DNA from: Alphaproteobacteria bacterium
GTDB taxonomy: Bacteria; Pseudomonadota; Alphaproteobacteria; Micavibrionales; Micavibrionaceae
NCBI GenBank assembly: GCA_018063145.1
Contig: JAGOQV010000013.1
Span: 1-33,580 of the forward strand
Length of the DNA stretch: 33,580 nucleotides
Direction: 5' to 3'
Part shown: positions 2,000-17,162 of the stretch, piece after piece
Layout of the letters: the number at the start of each line of letters is the position of its first letter
Numbering within the stretch: the stretch's first letter is position 1
Made by a program: the position numbers and the translations under genes
The notes under the pieces: model-generated
Told to the model about the DNA's origin: nothing
Seen by the model: only the letters and a program-made list of their open reading frames with translations
Database searches by the model: none

Positions 2000-3066
2000 G
2001 CCGAAATCCTCTCTTGCATTTTTTCCCGCGCTTCGCGTGTTGTGACTTTATCCAACACTTCGCCAAGAAAAGATTCCATCAACATCCGGCGGGCAGCCTC
2101 TTCCGAAAGTCCCCGACTACGAAGGTAAAACATAGGCTCTTCATCCAGAGGTCCTGTCGTCGCCCCGTGAGAGCATTTGACATCGTCCGCATAGATTTCA
2201 AGCTCAGGCTTGACATCCATTTCAGCCAAAGGAGATAAAATGACGTTATTGGAAAGTTGATACCCATCCGTCTTTTGCGCATTCTGATGAACGTGGATTT
2301 TTCCTTGATACACGCCACGAGACATTCCATCCAAAACACTTCTGAAAAACTGGCTTGAATGGCAATGGGGGGCCACATGGTCAACGCGAATGGTTGTGTC
2401 TCCCAACTGCTTTCCGCGCAGCAAGGTCAAACCAGAGAGATCCACGCTGGCATCTTGCCCCAGAAGAGACACATCAAACTCCTGACGCGTAAATCCCCCT
2501 CCGGTCGTGAGGCTTACCATTTTGTACTTTGCTCCCTGCTCCAATTCGACATGAACGGCATGGGTTGAAACAGAAAACGGATCATCTTCGAGAATACGGT
2601 AATGGGTCAGCTTTGCTTCTCGCGCCAACCGAATGGTAATGGCTCCATTTTTCCAATAAGATTCCTCTCCGGTATGCGTTTCAATAATAGTAATATCGCT
2701 GCCATCCCGCCCTTCAATATCGATCCGCCACGGAATAACATAACGCCCCGCCCCGCGCAAAGACAAGAAAACGGGACGAGCCGCTTCGCGGTGACGAGGA
2801 ACAAACAAACGAACAACCTTTGGCGCATAACGGTTATTCAGGTCCCATAACTCTCCAGTCCCAGATATTTTCTTCTGGGTGGGATCAATAGATTCCAGAA
2901 AATCAAAAGCCCCCGAAGTTTCCCAATCAGGCCCCTGCACCTCTGGATGTTGCATAAGGAGAGCCGCCCGCAGATTTGAATATTTCCACCGCTCGGATTT
3001 GGGGTCAGGCAGAGCCAAGGCCCCCGCCCCGCGAAACGATAGAAGGGGGTTCCCTCCGCTGCTCAT
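1987..3066 (-). CDS. sufD: SufD, scaffold subunit of SufBCD
   Basis: SufD pairs with SufB and SufC to form the cytoplasmic scaffold on which Fe-S clusters are built. The protein is 359 aa, somewhat shorter than E. coli SufD, with the low-conservation N-terminal region reduced. The C-terminal beta-helix core is clear, including VKCSHGATTG (with the family's conserved His) at about residues 292-301 and FYLRSRGLSEEAAR after it. The start is ATG 3066, overlapping the sufC stop as ATGA, with GGAGG about 6 bases upstream. Its 3' end overlaps the GTG of sufS. This tight packing implies stoichiometric co-expression. Confidence 0.95.
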   Translation of the reverse strand: MSSGGNPLLSFRGAGALALPDPKSERWKYSNLRAALLMQHPEVQGPDWETSGAFDFLESIDPTQKKISGTGELWDLNNRYAPKVVRLFVPRHREAARPVFLSLRGAGRYVIPWRIDIEGRDGSDITIIETHTGEESYWKNGAITIRLAREAKLTHYRILEDDPFSVSTHAVHVELEQGAKYKMVSLTTGGGFTRQEFDVSLLGQDASVDLSGLTLLRGKQLGDTTIRVDHVAPHCHSSQFFRSVLDGMSRGVYQGKIHVHQNAQKTDGYQLSNNVILSPLAEMDVKPELEIYADDVKCSHGATTGPLDEEPMFYLRSRGLSEEAARRMLMESFLGEVLDKVTTREAREKMQERISAWLT

Positions 3067-3809
3067 GCCGCCCCTCCGATGTTGACATAGCCGGAGGATT
3101 CAAGCGACACAGCAAGATCTGCGCCGCCTGATTTGACAATTTTTCCACCAGACAAGACATGGACATGATCCGGCACGATATAATCCAAAAGACGTTGGTA
3201 ATGGGTGATAATGAGGAAAGACCGACGAGGAGAGCGCAGCGCATTGATTCCCTCAGCCACAACTTTCAGCGCATCAATATCAAGACCGGAATCGGTTTCG
3301 TCCAATACAGCCAGTTTTGGCTCCAACATCATCATTTGCAACACTTCGTTGCGTTTCTTCTCGCCGCCAGAAAAGCCAACATTGACGGGACGCTTAATCA
3401 TCTCATCAGAAATTCCCAAAGCAGCCTGTTTGGATTTGAGGAGTTTGAGAAAGGCTAGGGCATCCATCTCCCCTTCCCCGCGCTGCTTACGCAAAGCATC
3501 CAAGGACGTTTTCATGAAATTGGTTATCTGCACACCCGGAATTTCAACAGGATACTGGAAAGCGAGGAAAACCCCCGCTGCCGCCCGCGCTTCCGGTGTC
3601 AGATTTAGAATGCTTTTTCCTTCAAGCAGGATATCCCCGCTCGTTACGGTGTACCCGGGTTTTCCCGCCAGAATATAAGAGAGCGTAGATTTCCCAGCCC
3701 CGTTTGGCCCCATAATCGCGTGGACTTCGCCCGCTCCGATGGTCAGGTTCAACCCTTTGAGAATTTGTTTGCCATCAATTTCAGCGGCAAGATTTTTAAT
3801 TTGAAGCAT
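3063..3809 (-). CDS. sufC: SufC, Fe-S assembly ATPase
   Basis: ABC-type ATPase that drives conformational change in SufBCD; it is soluble and not a transporter. At 248 aa it has the normal length. Visible motifs are Walker A GPNGAGKST (about residues 34-42), Q-loop AFQYPVEIPG, the SufC-specific signature FSGGEKKRNEV, Walker B LAVLDETDSGLDID and the switch His in LIITHYQRLLDYI. The ATG at 3809 follows sufB by 41 bp, the largest gap in the operon, with only a weak purine-rich Shine-Dalgarno. The stop overlaps the sufD start by 4 bp. Confidence 0.97.
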   Translation of the reverse strand: MLQIKNLAAEIDGKQILKGLNLTIGAGEVHAIMGPNGAGKSTLSYILAGKPGYTVTSGDILLEGKSILNLTPEARAAAGVFLAFQYPVEIPGVQITNFMKTSLDALRKQRGEGEMDALAFLKLLKSKQAALGISDEMIKRPVNVGFSGGEKKRNEVLQMMMLEPKLAVLDETDSGLDIDALKVVAEGINALRSPRRSFLIITHYQRLLDYIVPDHVHVLSGGKIVKSGGADLAVSLESSGYVNIGGAA

Positions 3810-11279: not shown

Positions 11280-12842
11280 TCAATGCATATACGTCAAAGA
11301 AAACAGAACATGGTTGTCTGTATAATCTTCGGAGGAAATTGTAGAAATCCGCTTCCGGTAATTATACTCAGCCCCTGCCGATAAATTGTCCGAAAGCTTG
11401 TAATCTGCTTCGACTCCGGCTTCCAGAAGCTTGTTTTTGCGCGAGGTTCCCGAGAGAGAATAGTCATTGTCATCATAACGCACGCTTGTGGCTCCACTGA
11501 GGCGCGTGGTGAGGCTGCTCCGTAATTCCGCTTGATGCGACGTGGTCATTGACCCACCAGTTCCCGATACGCTTGGCTCGCTAAAATACCGTGCCGATTG
11601 AAGGGACAAAGCAGTCAAAGGAGTGATTTCCCAAACAAACGACCCGCCGACATAGGGGTCTTTAACATCAAACTCGCCCTCATGTTTGCGGTGAAGATAG
11701 CCGCCAAACAAGCTCCCGCGATAAAGACTTGCCGTATGAAACTTGAGCCCCAAACGCGTGTTTACTCTGGTTGCCCGATCTTCAGTGCCGTTGATGAGAG
11801 AATAATCCGTTGTGTTATAGGTAACTTCAAGAAAGAGCTCATTTTCTGGCAGATATTCAAAGGCAATATTTGATTGATATGTGTTCGAGTTTTTCTCGAA
11901 ATAATCCCCGCTCCCGAGCAAGAAGCGATCTGACTCCAGCTCACTTTTTTCTGTACTGCCAAAGAGCTTGAGCTGAATATAGCTTAGAGCGCGTGTAAAA
12001 CTCAGGCTTCCCTTGGTGGCGTTGTAATCAACTGTGTCGCCCCCTTCTTGGTCTTCCCCTGCCCCACGCCCGTAATGTTTGCGGTTCCGTTCCAACCCTC
12101 CCACGACATAAGTTTCATAGGCAATGTCATATTGACCAGACAACAGGAAACCGTAATCGGTATAATCCTTGTGGCTGTATCTTTTATAGGAAGCTTTTTC
12201 AGCCTTTGTTCCGAAATAAAGCGAATGGCGATTCCAGTTGGTTTGCACCGCGAGGCCCGGCTCAAACACCGTTACCATATCGGAAGATGTGTCGTTTTTG
12301 CTTAGAAAGATATTGTCGTGAATATTTGTTTCTACCTTAACCCCGGGGGAAATCATAAAGCCTCCCAAAGGAATGCCAATCGTGGACTGGTCAGAAATTT
12401 TTGAAGGTGGCAGAGAAAGAATATTGTCAGGAGAGGTTGGCTGAGCCCACACCGGCGAAGAAGAAAGAGATAAGACACCGACAACAAGCAGCATCCTCCG
12501 CGGGTGAGCCTCTAGGCCAGATTTGAACAACCGCCCCAGACCAATTCCCAACACGACCCCCACGCAATTGGCAAGAGCATCACGGACGGAGGCTTGCCTA
12601 CCGCCGATAACATCTTGCAAAACCTCGTTCAAAACTCCCATTAACATCAATAAAAATCCGGTTATAAGATGAGCCCGCAAAGAAGATAAAAGAACAACCG
12701 GAATCACCATTAAAAAACTATAAGCAAGAACGTGAAGCAGTTTATCTGACTCGTTCGGCGTTGTAATAAGGTGCGGAATGAGAGAAAGCCCAGCGACAAG
12801 AGCAATCATCACAACCCAAAGAAAATGGGAAGCTCTTCTCAT
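11280..12842 (-). CDS. VanZ-like membrane domain fused to an outer-membrane beta-barrel protein
   Basis: 520-aa protein with two unlike parts in one frame. Residues 1-~108 are VanZ-like: hydrophobic helices with SDKLLHVLAYSFLM and NEVLQDVIGGRQASVRDAL. A second hydrophobic stretch ending in SSSPVWAQ (about residues 117-134) looks like a signal peptide with a cleavage site. Residues ~135-520 alternate polar and hydrophobic residues with many aromatics, like an outer-membrane barrel (BBP2_2-type proteins of exopolysaccharide loci). The start is ATG 12842, 12 bp after the Wzc-like gene. An internal ATG at 12494 lies exactly before the second signal sequence, but GGAGG abuts it with no spacing. 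It may be one polypeptide or a nested second start. Context suggests polysaccharide export. Confidence 0.75.
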   Translation of the reverse strand: MRRASHFLWVVMIALVAGLSLIPHLITTPNESDKLLHVLAYSFLMVIPVVLLSSLRAHLITGFLLMLMGVLNEVLQDVIGGRQASVRDALANCVGVVLGIGLGRLFKSGLEAHPRRMLLVVGVLSLSSSPVWAQPTSPDNILSLPPSKISDQSTIGIPLGGFMISPGVKVETNIHDNIFLSKNDTSSDMVTVFEPGLAVQTNWNRHSLYFGTKAEKASYKRYSHKDYTDYGFLLSGQYDIAYETYVVGGLERNRKHYGRGAGEDQEGGDTVDYNATKGSLSFTRALSYIQLKLFGSTEKSELESDRFLLGSGDYFEKNSNTYQSNIAFEYLPENELFLEVTYNTTDYSLINGTEDRATRVNTRLGLKFHTASLYRGSLFGGYLHRKHEGEFDVKDPYVGGSFVWEITPLTALSLQSARYFSEPSVSGTGGSMTTSHQAELRSSLTTRLSGATSVRYDDNDYSLSGTSRKNKLLEAGVEADYKLSDNLSAGAEYNYRKRISTISSEDYTDNHVLFSLTYMH

Positions 12843-12854
12843 CCCCCCGTCCCC

Positions 12855-14906
12855 TTACGCGGCTTGGCCAATATTTGGCAACAAGAAATCAGATCCCACA
12901 GCACCTTCTTTGTATTTCTCAATATCGACACGGTTTAAGACGACTCCCAGAACGGGAACCGCATAGGTTTTGAGCAATGCCAACATACCGGACATATCCT
13001 GTTTGGAAGTTTTCATCCACTCAGTCACAACGATAACACCATCTGCCTGATTGGCAATAGCCCCAGCCTCAGAATGTGCCAAAATTGGTCCGGTATCTAC
13101 CAAAATATAACCATAAGTCTTTTTCAATTCAGCGAACAACTCATGCATCCGCTCAAAATGGATTGGCCCCATATCCTGTCCGGTTTTTCCGCCGCGCAAA
13201 ATAGCAAGACCGTTCGGATCTCGTGCAATAGCCTCGGCCAAAGGAGAGCGTCCAGATAAGACGTCGGCAAGGCTGGCTCCGCCGCTGCCCTTCAACATCG
13301 TCGTCAAACTCGGCTTAAGGAAGTCGGCATCAATCACGATAACCTTGTGTCCTTGGGCCATCAAAGAATACGCAAGGGCTGTAACCAGCGTGGTTCTCCC
13401 CTCTTTGGGCAGAGCAGAAGTCACCAAAACGGCTTTAGCCGGAGTGCCAAACAATCCCGCCATATATATTCGTTTGACGGCTTCCTTAAAGGTTGAGTTC
13501 TGAGCAGAACGCGCCGCCATCAAAGGATTGTCAACTTTTGGCAAAATGCCCAAGGGGCGAACTCCCAATTTGCGTACGTCTTCGTAATTGGCAAGACCAG
13601 AACTCAAAATTTCCGAGATAAAGACAACGGCGAGAGCAAAGCTTCCTGCAAACACGAGGTTCACAATCATCAAGAGGGTTTTCCCGGGCTTGACCGGATA
13701 AAGCGGAGCCACCGCCGTTGAGACCACAACAGCATCTGGCCGTGCAAAACTGACCTGTGATTGCAAGTTTTCGTAGTTATTCAAAAACCCATCAAGAAGT
13801 TTCTGACTGGCATCTTGTTCAACCACAAGGCTTTTAAGCGTCACCAACTTGACCCTCATGTTATCAGCTTGTCTTTTCAAAGCCTCAAGACGTTCTTGCA
13901 GCATAGCTTCTTGAGCCTCTGTCGCTTTCAAGTCGTTAAGCAACGAGACTTTAATATTGGTTATTTCGGTTTTAATGGCGCCCTCGACTTGGCCATACTG
14001 ACTGGAAGCTGCACGAAGCCCGGGGTGATTAGGGCCATAGCGTGAACTCAACCCCTGCATTTGCTGGCCGGCAAGGCTTTTTTGTTCCTTAAGGTGTTGA
14101 ATGAGAGGAGAACTGACCACATCGCCAATTGCATCTGGATTGCCCTCTTCTTCAGCAACTTCAATTGCCTTCAGCTTAGCCTGCAAATCAAACTTATGAA
14201 CCTGCACTGGGGCGATCTGATTGGAAATGTCTGAAATCTGCTGGTAAACCAGTTCTTGGGAATCTTTGCCAACCGCTAAATCTTCCTTGGCGCGAAATTC
14301 GTTGACGGATTGAGACTTTTGAATGACATCCGCCTTAAGATCTTTAACCTTGGTTTCGAACCACTCACGCAATTGCTCAACACGTTGACGCTTAAAATCT
14401 ATCTGGGACTCAAGATAAGCCTGCACATGGGCATTGGCGATCTGCGCTGCTTTTTCTGGGTCTTTGTCTTTATAAGAAACTTCAATGACCCGCGACAAGC
14501 CTTGAGGAAAAACCGAAAGATTTTTGGTGAAGGTTGCAAGCATCTTTTTAGGATCAGACGCAACCTCGGCAAACTCTGGGAATTGGCTCATATCCAATTT
14601 TTTAAGGGTCAATGCCGCCAGGCTCGGGGAAGAGAGCATTTTAATTTCAGTTTGAACTGTTAATTCGCTGAATTTATTTCCTTCGGTGACATCATTAAAA
14701 TCTGCCAGCTTGACAGTCTTGTCTTCAATCATCACCGAAGAAGATGCGGCATAATAAGTCGGACGCATCAAGACAACCAAAGTTCCCAGCAAAAAGGTTA
14801 CGGCTCCAACCGCAACAATCATCCGGCGACGCCGCCAAAGGATCAAGAAAATGTCCCGTATGTCCGGAAGTGTATCCATCGCGGGAGAAAATTCATCGTT
14901 TTGCAT
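12855..14906 (-). CDS. Wzz/Wzc-like polysaccharide co-polymerase with C-terminal BY-kinase domain
   Basis: 683-aa inner-membrane protein controlling polysaccharide chain length and export. Residues ~28-48 form TM1, a periplasmic coiled-coil-rich region follows to ~410, and PVKPGKTLLMIVNLVFAG begins TM2 with its family proline motif. The C-terminal CpsD/ExoP-like ATPase has Walker A' VIVIDADFLKP and Walker B YILVDTGP. Its P-loop reads ALPKEGRTT: Arg (R504) replaces the normally invariant Lys. The C-terminus lacks the usual tyrosine cluster, with only one Tyr in the last 20 residues, so kinase activity may be reduced or lost. The ATG at 14906 is preceded by an AAGGA that sits in a small palindrome. 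It heads a two-gene unit with the VanZ/barrel gene. Confidence 0.9.
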   Translation of the reverse strand: MQNDEFSPAMDTLPDIRDIFLILWRRRRMIVAVGAVTFLLGTLVVLMRPTYYAASSSVMIEDKTVKLADFNDVTEGNKFSELTVQTEIKMLSSPSLAALTLKKLDMSQFPEFAEVASDPKKMLATFTKNLSVFPQGLSRVIEVSYKDKDPEKAAQIANAHVQAYLESQIDFKRQRVEQLREWFETKVKDLKADVIQKSQSVNEFRAKEDLAVGKDSQELVYQQISDISNQIAPVQVHKFDLQAKLKAIEVAEEEGNPDAIGDVVSSPLIQHLKEQKSLAGQQMQGLSSRYGPNHPGLRAASSQYGQVEGAIKTEITNIKVSLLNDLKATEAQEAMLQERLEALKRQADNMRVKLVTLKSLVVEQDASQKLLDGFLNNYENLQSQVSFARPDAVVVSTAVAPLYPVKPGKTLLMIVNLVFAGSFALAVVFISEILSSGLANYEDVRKLGVRPLGILPKVDNPLMAARSAQNSTFKEAVKRIYMAGLFGTPAKAVLVTSALPKEGRTTLVTALAYSLMAQGHKVIVIDADFLKPSLTTMLKGSGGASLADVLSGRSPLAEAIARDPNGLAILRGGKTGQDMGPIHFERMHELFAELKKTYGYILVDTGPILAHSEAGAIANQADGVIVVTEWMKTSKQDMSGMLALLKTYAVPVLGVVLNRVDIEKYKEGAVGSDFLLPNIGQAA

Positions 14907-15114: not shown

Positions 15115-16335
15115 ATGTCGTTGACACCATCTTCTACCGCTGAAAACCCTCGCAAACGGGTTCTGGTTCTTATCGGAACCCGCCCTGAAGCTATTAAAAT
15201 GGCTCCAGTTATCAAGGCGTTGCACCGTCAAGGTGAAACCGAAGTCGTGGTTTGCGCGACCGGACAGCATACGGATATGGTTTTCCCGCTTCTTGATTGG
15301 TTTGGCATCTCCCGCGACTTCACGCTTGACGTGATGAGCCACCAACAGCCTCTTTCCCATCTTGCGGGCCGCCTGCTTTCTGGTCTCCATGACGTGATCG
15401 AAGAAGTTAACCCCGATGTGGTCATGGCTCAAGGCGATACAACCTCAGCTTTTATTGGCTGCTTGGCGGCCTATTACAGTTACGATCACTTCTGGAAAAA
15501 CCAGCTCCGCAGCACTCCCATTGAAATTGCCCATGTCGAAGCCGGATTACGGACTGGGAATAACTATTCCCCCTATCCAGAAGAAATCAACCGCCGCTTG
15601 ATGGGCCACATGGCTCATTGGAACTTTGCTCCTACGCTGGAATCTGCAGCGGCTCTCCACCGTGAAGGGATTAAGACCAACGTCTTTGTGACAGGAAACA
15701 CGGTCATTGACGCCTTGTTTGAAACCCGCGATCTGGTCGCCAAAAGCGGCATCGATCCTGTCCCATTTATTCCTCAAGGCGAAAAAATCATTCTTGTTAC
15801 CAGCCACCGCCGCGAGAACTATGGCGAAGGCCTCAGAGAAATCTGCGCTGCGATTAAGGCCTTGGCCCTTCGTTATGCCGATCAGAATTACCATTTTGTG
15901 TATCCGGTTCACCTGAACCAGCACGTTCAAAAACCAGTTCATGAACTTTTGGGCGGCCTTTCTAATGTGCATCTCATTGCCCCGCAGGGCTACCCAGAAT
16001 TTGTGGCTCTCATGGCCCGCAGCCACCTGATCTTGACTGATTCCGGCGGGGTACAGGAAGAAGGCCCTTCTTTAGCCAAGCCTGTTCTTGTCATGCGTGA
16101 CAATACCGAACGCCCTGAAGCAATTACGGCGGGAACAGCTCGTCTGGTGGGCCCTCGAACAAATAGCATCATCGCCGAAACTTGCGCTTTGCTGGATAAC
16201 CCTCTTCTTTACAACCGCATGGCCCATACGGCCAACCCCTACGGGGACGGCAAAGCGAGTACGCGCATTGTAAATCTTTTGCGCGGTGGTAAGGCCGATG
16301 ACAACACGTTCATCTATAACCCTGACCCATCCTAA
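15115..16335 (+). CDS. wecB: Non-hydrolysing UDP-N-acetylglucosamine 2-epimerase
   Basis: Interconverts UDP-GlcNAc and UDP-ManNAc in the cytoplasm, supplying ManNAc-type sugars for surface polysaccharide. The protein is 406 aa, slightly longer than the ~375 typical. Family motifs are IGTRPEAIKMAPVI (residues ~20-33), CATGQHTDM, AQGDTTSAF, EAGLRTGNNYSPYPEEINRR, TSHRRENYGEG and LTDSGGVQEEGPSL. A short insertion (about a dozen residues, around SYDHFWKNQLRS) sits between the GDTT and EAGLRTG motifs. The start is ATG 15115, with only a weak GGAC upstream. It is followed after 29 bp by the glycosyltransferase gene. Confidence 0.95.
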   Translation: MSLTPSSTAENPRKRVLVLIGTRPEAIKMAPVIKALHRQGETEVVVCATGQHTDMVFPLLDWFGISRDFTLDVMSHQQPLSHLAGRLLSGLHDVIEEVNPDVVMAQGDTTSAFIGCLAAYYSYDHFWKNQLRSTPIEIAHVEAGLRTGNNYSPYPEEINRRLMGHMAHWNFAPTLESAAALHREGIKTNVFVTGNTVIDALFETRDLVAKSGIDPVPFIPQGEKIILVTSHRRENYGEGLREICAAIKALALRYADQNYHFVYPVHLNQHVQKPVHELLGGLSNVHLIAPQGYPEFVALMARSHLILTDSGGVQEEGPSLAKPVLVMRDNTERPEAITAGTARLVGPRTNSIIAETCALLDNPLLYNRMAHTANPYGDGKASTRIVNLLRGGKADDNTFIYNPDPS

Positions 16336-16364: not shown

Positions 16365-17162
16365 ATGTCCACCACGATTGATCCATCTGCCTACCTGCAA
16401 AACCCCACCAAGCGTTTTACTTTTCTTGGGGCTCCGATGGATGGACTCACCATGAGCGAAACCTTGGCGATTGCCGAACACTGCATGAAAACGCGCACGC
16501 GGCTTCAACACGTTGTCGTCAATGTTGCCAAGCTCGTAAATATGCAATCCGATAAGGCCTTGTGCGAAGACGTGAGCGGCAGCGACTTGATTAACATTGA
16601 TGGCATGGGTGTTGTTTGGGGAGCGCGTCTATGTGGCCATACTGTCCCCGAACGGGTCAGCGGCGTTGACATCATGGAACATCTTTTGAAACTCTGCGCC
16701 GAAAAAGGCTATCGCCCCTATTTCTTTGGAGCAAAACAAGAAGTTCTGGAACAGGCCGTCCGTAATATTCAAGTTCAATATCCAACCATTGTGATTGCGG
16801 GCTATCGCAACGGATATTTCAAACCCGAAGAAGAAGCCGGACTTATTCAAGATATTGCCGCTGCCAAGGCTGATTGCTTGTTTATTGCCATTTCCAGCCC
16901 TACCAAGGAACGGTTGCTTGCCCAATACAAGGACACCATCAATGTTCCCTTTTTGATGGGCGTTGGAGGATCTATTGACATCAAAGCTGGCCTCACCAAA
17001 CGCGCCCCGCTCTGGATGCAGAAATTCGGGCTCGAGTGGCTTTACCGTATTTTGCAGGAACCTCGGCGAATGTTCATGCGCTATTGGACCACCAACCGCA
17101 AATATGCTGGTCTGCTTTGGAAAGAATGGTGCCGGTTCAAAGGCTGCGCAAAAACCGTATAA
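16365..17162 (+). CDS. WecG/TagA/CpsF-family glycosyltransferase
   Basis: 265-aa glycosyltransferase of the family that adds N-acetylmannosamine or ManNAcA to lipid-linked GlcNAc during polysaccharide or teichoic acid synthesis. Family features are FLGAPMDGLTM near the N-terminus, VNVAKLVNMQ, INIDGMGVVWGARL (the conserved Asp-Gly segment, about residues 74-87), ERVSGVDIMEHL, PYFFGAKQEVLEQA, FIAISSPTKE, FLMGVGGSID and FGLEWLYRILQEPRR. The position right after wecB fits a UDP-ManNAc-derived donor. Its stop lies inside the convergent amidohydrolase gene (26-bp tail-to-tail overlap). Confidence 0.9.
   Translation: MSTTIDPSAYLQNPTKRFTFLGAPMDGLTMSETLAIAEHCMKTRTRLQHVVVNVAKLVNMQSDKALCEDVSGSDLINIDGMGVVWGARLCGHTVPERVSGVDIMEHLLKLCAEKGYRPYFFGAKQEVLEQAVRNIQVQYPTIVIAGYRNGYFKPEEEAGLIQDIAAAKADCLFIAISSPTKERLLAQYKDTINVPFLMGVGGSIDIKAGLTKRAPLWMQKFGLEWLYRILQEPRRMFMRYWTTNRKYAGLLWKEWCRFKGCAKTV

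Follow-up and report, generated by a model that had tools for sequence, protein, structure and literature searches.

A VanZ domain and a predicted exopolysaccharide exit porin in one reading frame, joined by a signal peptide with a predicted cleavage site

The fusion gene and its surroundings

The window, that is, the whole analysed stretch of 33,580 nucleotides, carries on its minus strand an open reading frame (11280..12842) that starts with ATG at 12842 and runs through 520 codons without interruption to a stop at 11280. From the frame, profile matches and an AlphaFold2 model, we identified in it, in this order, a four-helix VanZ domain, a Sec signal peptide that ends in VWA before QPTSPDN, and a BBP2_2 porin. 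The AlphaFold2 model of the 520-residue chain (mean pLDDT 86) shows four helices, a low-confidence stretch (residues 115-140) and exactly 18 beta strands (162-519). By hydropathy, transmembrane segments lie at residues 7-23, 36-52, 59-75 and 90-106 and a fifth one at 117-133, which ends exactly at A133; none was found after A133 in the 520-residue chain. The first-pass annotation of this DNA had described one open frame with a VanZ-like domain, a signal peptide and a barrel, and frame, profiles, hydropathy and model agree with that description.

It had also placed the gene in an exopolysaccharide locus, which the neighbouring genes bear out: a gene for a Wzc-like polysaccharide co-polymerase with a BY-kinase-like domain (12855..14906, minus strand) lies 12 bp upstream, and genes for the UDP-GlcNAc 2-epimerase WecB (15115..16335, plus strand) and a WecG/TagA/CpsF glycosyltransferase (16365..17162, plus strand) lie nearby, all assigned from profiles. 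The remaining window consists largely of housekeeping genes.

The VanZ domain and the barrel

To our knowledge, VanZ has so far been given no settled function. The VanZ (Lipocone) domain of the fusion (residues 1-110; 12513..12842, minus strand) was delimited from profiles, hydropathy, models and residue conservation. It scores 26.3 bits with the VanZ profile NF037970, above the cut-off of 20, and 26.4 bits with PF04892, slightly under the cut-off of 30.1, which separate neighbour VanZ proteins (loci L005, L028 and L029) do pass. Both hydropathy and the model (helices 2-20, 30-51, 55-79 and 86-111) show the four-helix hydrophobic core. The predicted active-site residues H37, E73 and D88 were invariant in 10 of the 10 VanZ proteins compared, as were D33, K34, Q76, R82, S85 and N92; in the predicted topology, these conserved residues would be at, or close to, the helix ends that face the periplasm. 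Four hydrophobic helices are shared with VanZ of the Lipocone superfamily, and H37, E73 and D88 match its pattern of His in helix 2, Glu in helix 3 and Asp in helix 4 (PMC12419801). Fold searches of solved structures with the VanZ part alone gave no informative match to a solved Lipocone structure. The main text of PMC12419801 predicts that VanZ acts on the head groups of lipid-linked glycans at the outer face of the membrane, and links VanZ-1 to Wzc and Wzz. The VanZ part may be a lipid-carrier head-group enzyme retained in the inner membrane, and could release or transfer the chain.

The predicted mature barrel chain (residues 134-520; 11283..12443, minus strand) was identified by profile, model and fold search as a BBP2_2 porin with 18 strands between residues 162 and 519. 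The profile PF10082 matches residues 154-517 with 172.6 bits (E = 1.5e-50, cut-off 23.7), which makes the barrel a clear member of the BBP2_2 porins. We rejected the narrower identification as EpsL, a member of the same family, since the EpsL equivalog TIGR03014 yields 40.4 bits, far under its cut-off of 275. The closest solved fold is the alginate exporter AlgE (VIA-align Z 21.2, rmsd 4.1, 305 residues), a match that is not specific, with OprD-type porins within one Z unit of it.

An 18-stranded AlgE-like barrel, EpsX, is known from Myxococcus xanthus, where its partner is an OPX protein that has no outer-membrane domain (PMC9601211; see also PMC9603273). OPX genes are absent from the window; those of this genome lie on contigs 75 and 96. 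The OPX protein of contig 96 (191 residues) consists of Poly_export and SLBB only, without an outer-membrane domain, and is encoded next to an acyltransferase, a PCP and an apparent sugar transferase. A second, shorter OPX-like protein, with a Poly_export but no SLBB match, is encoded on contig 75, just before another co-polymerase/kinase-like gene. Among 78 related BBP2 loci, 47 have an OPX gene within 1.5 kb of the barrel, and nearly all of these frames encode 179-266 residues. Together, these observations make the barrel a likely exit porin for a surface polysaccharide, and the short OPX proteins encoded on contigs 75 and 96 are candidates for its partner.

A second fusion and relatives with separate genes

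A search for homologues, which the first-pass annotation had proposed, retrieved the same fusion once more as well as relatives with the two parts as separate genes. The second full-length fusion (locus L027) lies in a genome from another genus of the family, the metagenome-assembled genome HKST-UBA27 (coverage about 5x), directly after Wzc and with no stop in the frame. The two known fusions (n = 2) are 32% identical end to end, with 39% identity between the VanZ parts and 30% between the barrels. In five genomes of the same genus as the window (L004-L008), Wzc, VanZ and the barrel follow each other in that order as three genes, with VanZ and barrel in different frames, overlapping, or in the same frame with intervening stops. 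The second fusion and the separate-gene relatives thus also have the Wzc-like gene immediately upstream, and the gene order in these five genomes indicates that VanZ and the barrel belong together. Two further genomes of the genus (L002 and L003) have the barrel and no VanZ.

Searches of genome samples from the order (142 genomes), the class (385), the order of a more distant barrel-bearing genome (217) and the phylum (398) returned no third fusion, where rare or divergent fusions could escape samples of this size. A scan of genome contigs gave no match with the window protein as query and, with the second fusion as query, a match in its own genome only.

These relatives bear on the question of whether the fusion is an assembly or sequencing error, with two genes in the organism itself. 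The source genome is a fragmented assembly (122 contigs), and most relatives do have two genes, as the first-pass annotation had anticipated for the case of a lost stop. However, the fused gene of the other genus is independent, has the same layout at 32% identity and contains no stop, so two distant genomes would each have had to acquire the error at one and the same position. Moreover, both domains are complete and in one frame, and the join, at about 10 residues, is too short to hold a normal intergenic region. We therefore reject the error, which we regard as highly improbable, and consider the gene fusion real and rare: two known parts of polysaccharide pathways have been joined with the signal peptide kept between them. 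The layout is new; its component parts were already known.

In the barrel tree, both fusions, the separate-gene relatives, L002, L003 and the barrel of the distant genome G443 fall into one clade (support 100/100). The two fusions do not group with each other within it, and an AU test rejects a single fusion clade weakly (p = 0.031). Either an old fusion was later split, or VanZ and the barrel were fused twice; by our count, the two histories need an equal number of changes.

Several arrangements deserve mention. In L007 and L008, nothing but stop codons and a short gap separates VanZ from the barrel, the two being in one frame; such loci could once have been fused and then split, or could be poised for a fusion. 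In other genera, VanZ and BBP2 barrel genes are adjacent and convergent (L009, at 1408-2646 and 3027-3392, L028 and L029), so that the association of VanZ with the barrel outlives the fusion and the pairing is kept without an operon. In the distant family of G443 (L074), the barrel lies directly after Wzc and VanZ is absent; the Wzc-barrel pair may predate the insertion of VanZ, or VanZ may have been lost there.

A signal peptide at the join

VanZ and the barrel are connected by a cytoplasmic loop with three basic residues (KSGLEAHPRR, residues 107-116; 12495..12524, minus strand), delimited by hydropathy and charge and possibly serving as n-region, and by the hydrophobic and c-region of a signal peptide (residues 117-133; 12444..12494, minus strand), delimited by alignment, site score and hydropathy. 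The sequence between VanZ and barrel thus reads MLLVVGVLSLSSSPVWA followed by QPTSPDN, with the predicted cut between A133 and Q134.

We scored cleavage sites with a purpose-built score that was trained on 49 unfused barrels and is not a standard predictor. A133/Q134 received the highest score of all positions in the fusion protein (20.8), compared with 6.0 for the next-best site outside the neighbourhood of A133, a median of 12.2 and a maximum of 21.0 for the own sites of the unfused barrels, and 8.8 for the best false site in mature barrels. In the second fusion, A129/Q130 ranks first (17.3), with a fairly high score for its best alternative site, A131. The two sites correspond to the 98th (window) and 92nd (second fusion) percentile of the unfused-barrel sites. 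The score responds to helices, as VanZ-only proteins reach 7.5-11.1 inside theirs; both fusion sites are well above this range. A133 aligns with the signal-peptide cleavage column of 34 unfused barrels, which holds Ala in 30 of 36 rows. In the closest barrel of the genus, which has no VanZ (L002), an ordinary signal peptide is present, and its GASVA/QPISPDD aligns with SPVWA/QPTSPDN of the fusion. The charge pattern is the same in both fusions: the N terminus inside, four helices, a basic cytoplasmic loop (KSGLEAHPRR in the window, RKGWNA in the second fusion), and a fifth segment that runs from inside to outside and puts the site on the periplasmic side. By charges and site score, the internal signal peptide is intact and correctly oriented.

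The first-pass annotation had offered two ways to obtain a free barrel, release by signal peptidase and separate synthesis from an internal ATG. The second would start at ATG 12494-12492 (or at TTG 12530) and yield the barrel as a preprotein of its own, with the long read-through product in the minority. This ATG opens the hydrophobic segment in frame and has GGAGG directly before it (12492..12499, minus strand), and overlapping starts do occur in the genus: the VanZ genes of L005 and L006 contain, in another frame, the start of the separate barrel gene. However, sequence inspection, with Shine-Dalgarno use gauged against 19 genes of the window, makes this a weak alternative start, as there is no spacer at all between GGAGG and ATG, and the product would begin with MLLVVG, without a basic n-region, whereas the unfused L002 begins with MSLNRRYK. 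TTG 12530 has only GGGG, three bases upstream. No comparable start exists in the second fusion, where a TTG at codon 106 lacks a usable Shine-Dalgarno sequence. Furthermore, a full-length product would still be made, with the cleavage site still in it. We consider internal initiation unlikely. Given the site score, the alignment, the charges and the weak, non-conserved internal ATG, cleavage by signal peptidase I is the best reading, and one precursor is most likely cut into two chains at the predicted site.

If the chain were not cut, it would stay whole, either as a dead end in the inner membrane or as a bridge between both membranes. The first strand follows the last helix after about 28 residues that are predicted to be unstructured, which speaks for an uncut chain at most indirectly. 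Such a stretch could not comfortably span the periplasm with the barrel in the outer membrane, and the high-scoring signal-peptide site, kept in both fusions, would be needless without a cut. An uncut chain therefore appears very unlikely. In published work, a polytopic protein was given a signal-peptidase I site behind its final helix, and this engineered site was used to release the domain that followed (PMC5449189).

Proposed fate of the two products

We think it probable that one precursor gives rise to two proteins of the same polysaccharide-export pathway, parted by signal peptidase I at VWA. The VanZ part would be inserted via Sec as four helices, with its N and C ends in the cytoplasm, and its short basic C-terminal tail would lead into the signal peptide of the barrel, a fifth hydrophobic segment that would also cross the membrane. 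After a cut behind VWA by signal peptidase I at the periplasmic face, the barrel would be delivered to the outer membrane by the Bam pathway and, with a short OPX protein from another locus as partner, act as exit porin of a Wzx/Wzy-type exopolysaccharide. VanZ would remain an inner-membrane protein, now with the signal peptide as its fifth helix, and act on the lipid-carrier-linked glycan from the periplasmic side. A bolder version, which we offer only tentatively and hold to be rather doubtful, is an obligate two-membrane polyprotein: Lipocone enzyme and porin would be made at a fixed 1:1 ratio, the leftover signal peptide would be a working fifth helix, and a single step would both mature the porin and activate VanZ.

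The natural fusion of VanZ to a predicted exopolysaccharide exit porin, together with the adjacent genes of relatives, ties VanZ to polysaccharide release or export and makes VanZ and barrel a small, testable pair. It also illustrates that a two-membrane precursor can arise simply when the gene of an inner-membrane protein loses its stop and reads into that of an adjacent secreted protein, whose signal peptide then parts the two; one cut chain is an unusual way of making proteins for two different membranes.

Comparison with known systems

The cytochrome b/c1 precursor FbcH of Bradyrhizobium also combines a polytopic inner-membrane protein with an exported protein, and the two are separated at an internal signal peptide. 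Both products of FbcH remain at the inner membrane in one complex, whereas the second product of the window fusion is predicted to reach the outer membrane.

With EpsX-EpsY and WzpX/S/B of M. xanthus (PMC9601211, PMC9603273), the fusion shares the 18-stranded AlgE-like barrel, the Wzx/Wzy-type setting and the presence of short D1D2 OPX proteins in the genome. In contrast to these composite translocons, the barrel is here the C-terminal part of a VanZ precursor, encoded behind Wzc rather than beside an OPX gene. It differs from EpsL (40 vs. 275 bits for TIGR03014) also in the added N-terminal VanZ. As far as the main text of PMC12419801 describes them, VanZ-1 proteins have the exopolysaccharide and Wzc neighbourhood in common with the window VanZ, whose motifs are mixed (DKxxH, ExxQ, SxxDxxxN) and exactly match those of neither VanZ-1 nor VanZ-2. 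That main text describes many VanZ fusions, among which a fusion to a BBP2 barrel does not appear. The YfiM-type Lipocones treated there are likewise fused or linked to an outer-membrane barrel; their predicted site of action is the outer membrane, whereas the window VanZ has strongly hydrophobic inner-membrane helices and a signal peptide between the two parts.

The adjacent Wzc-like protein

In the kinase-like domain of the Wzc-like protein, Arg replaces the Walker A Lys (SALPKEGRTT), and the same replacement was seen in L004-L008, in the second fusion and in L074. The C terminus of the protein lacks a tyrosine cluster. Judged by its sequence, the protein is a candidate for a BY pseudokinase in one chain with its co-polymerase, for which the stand-alone EcpK (PMC12004946) is a comparison case.
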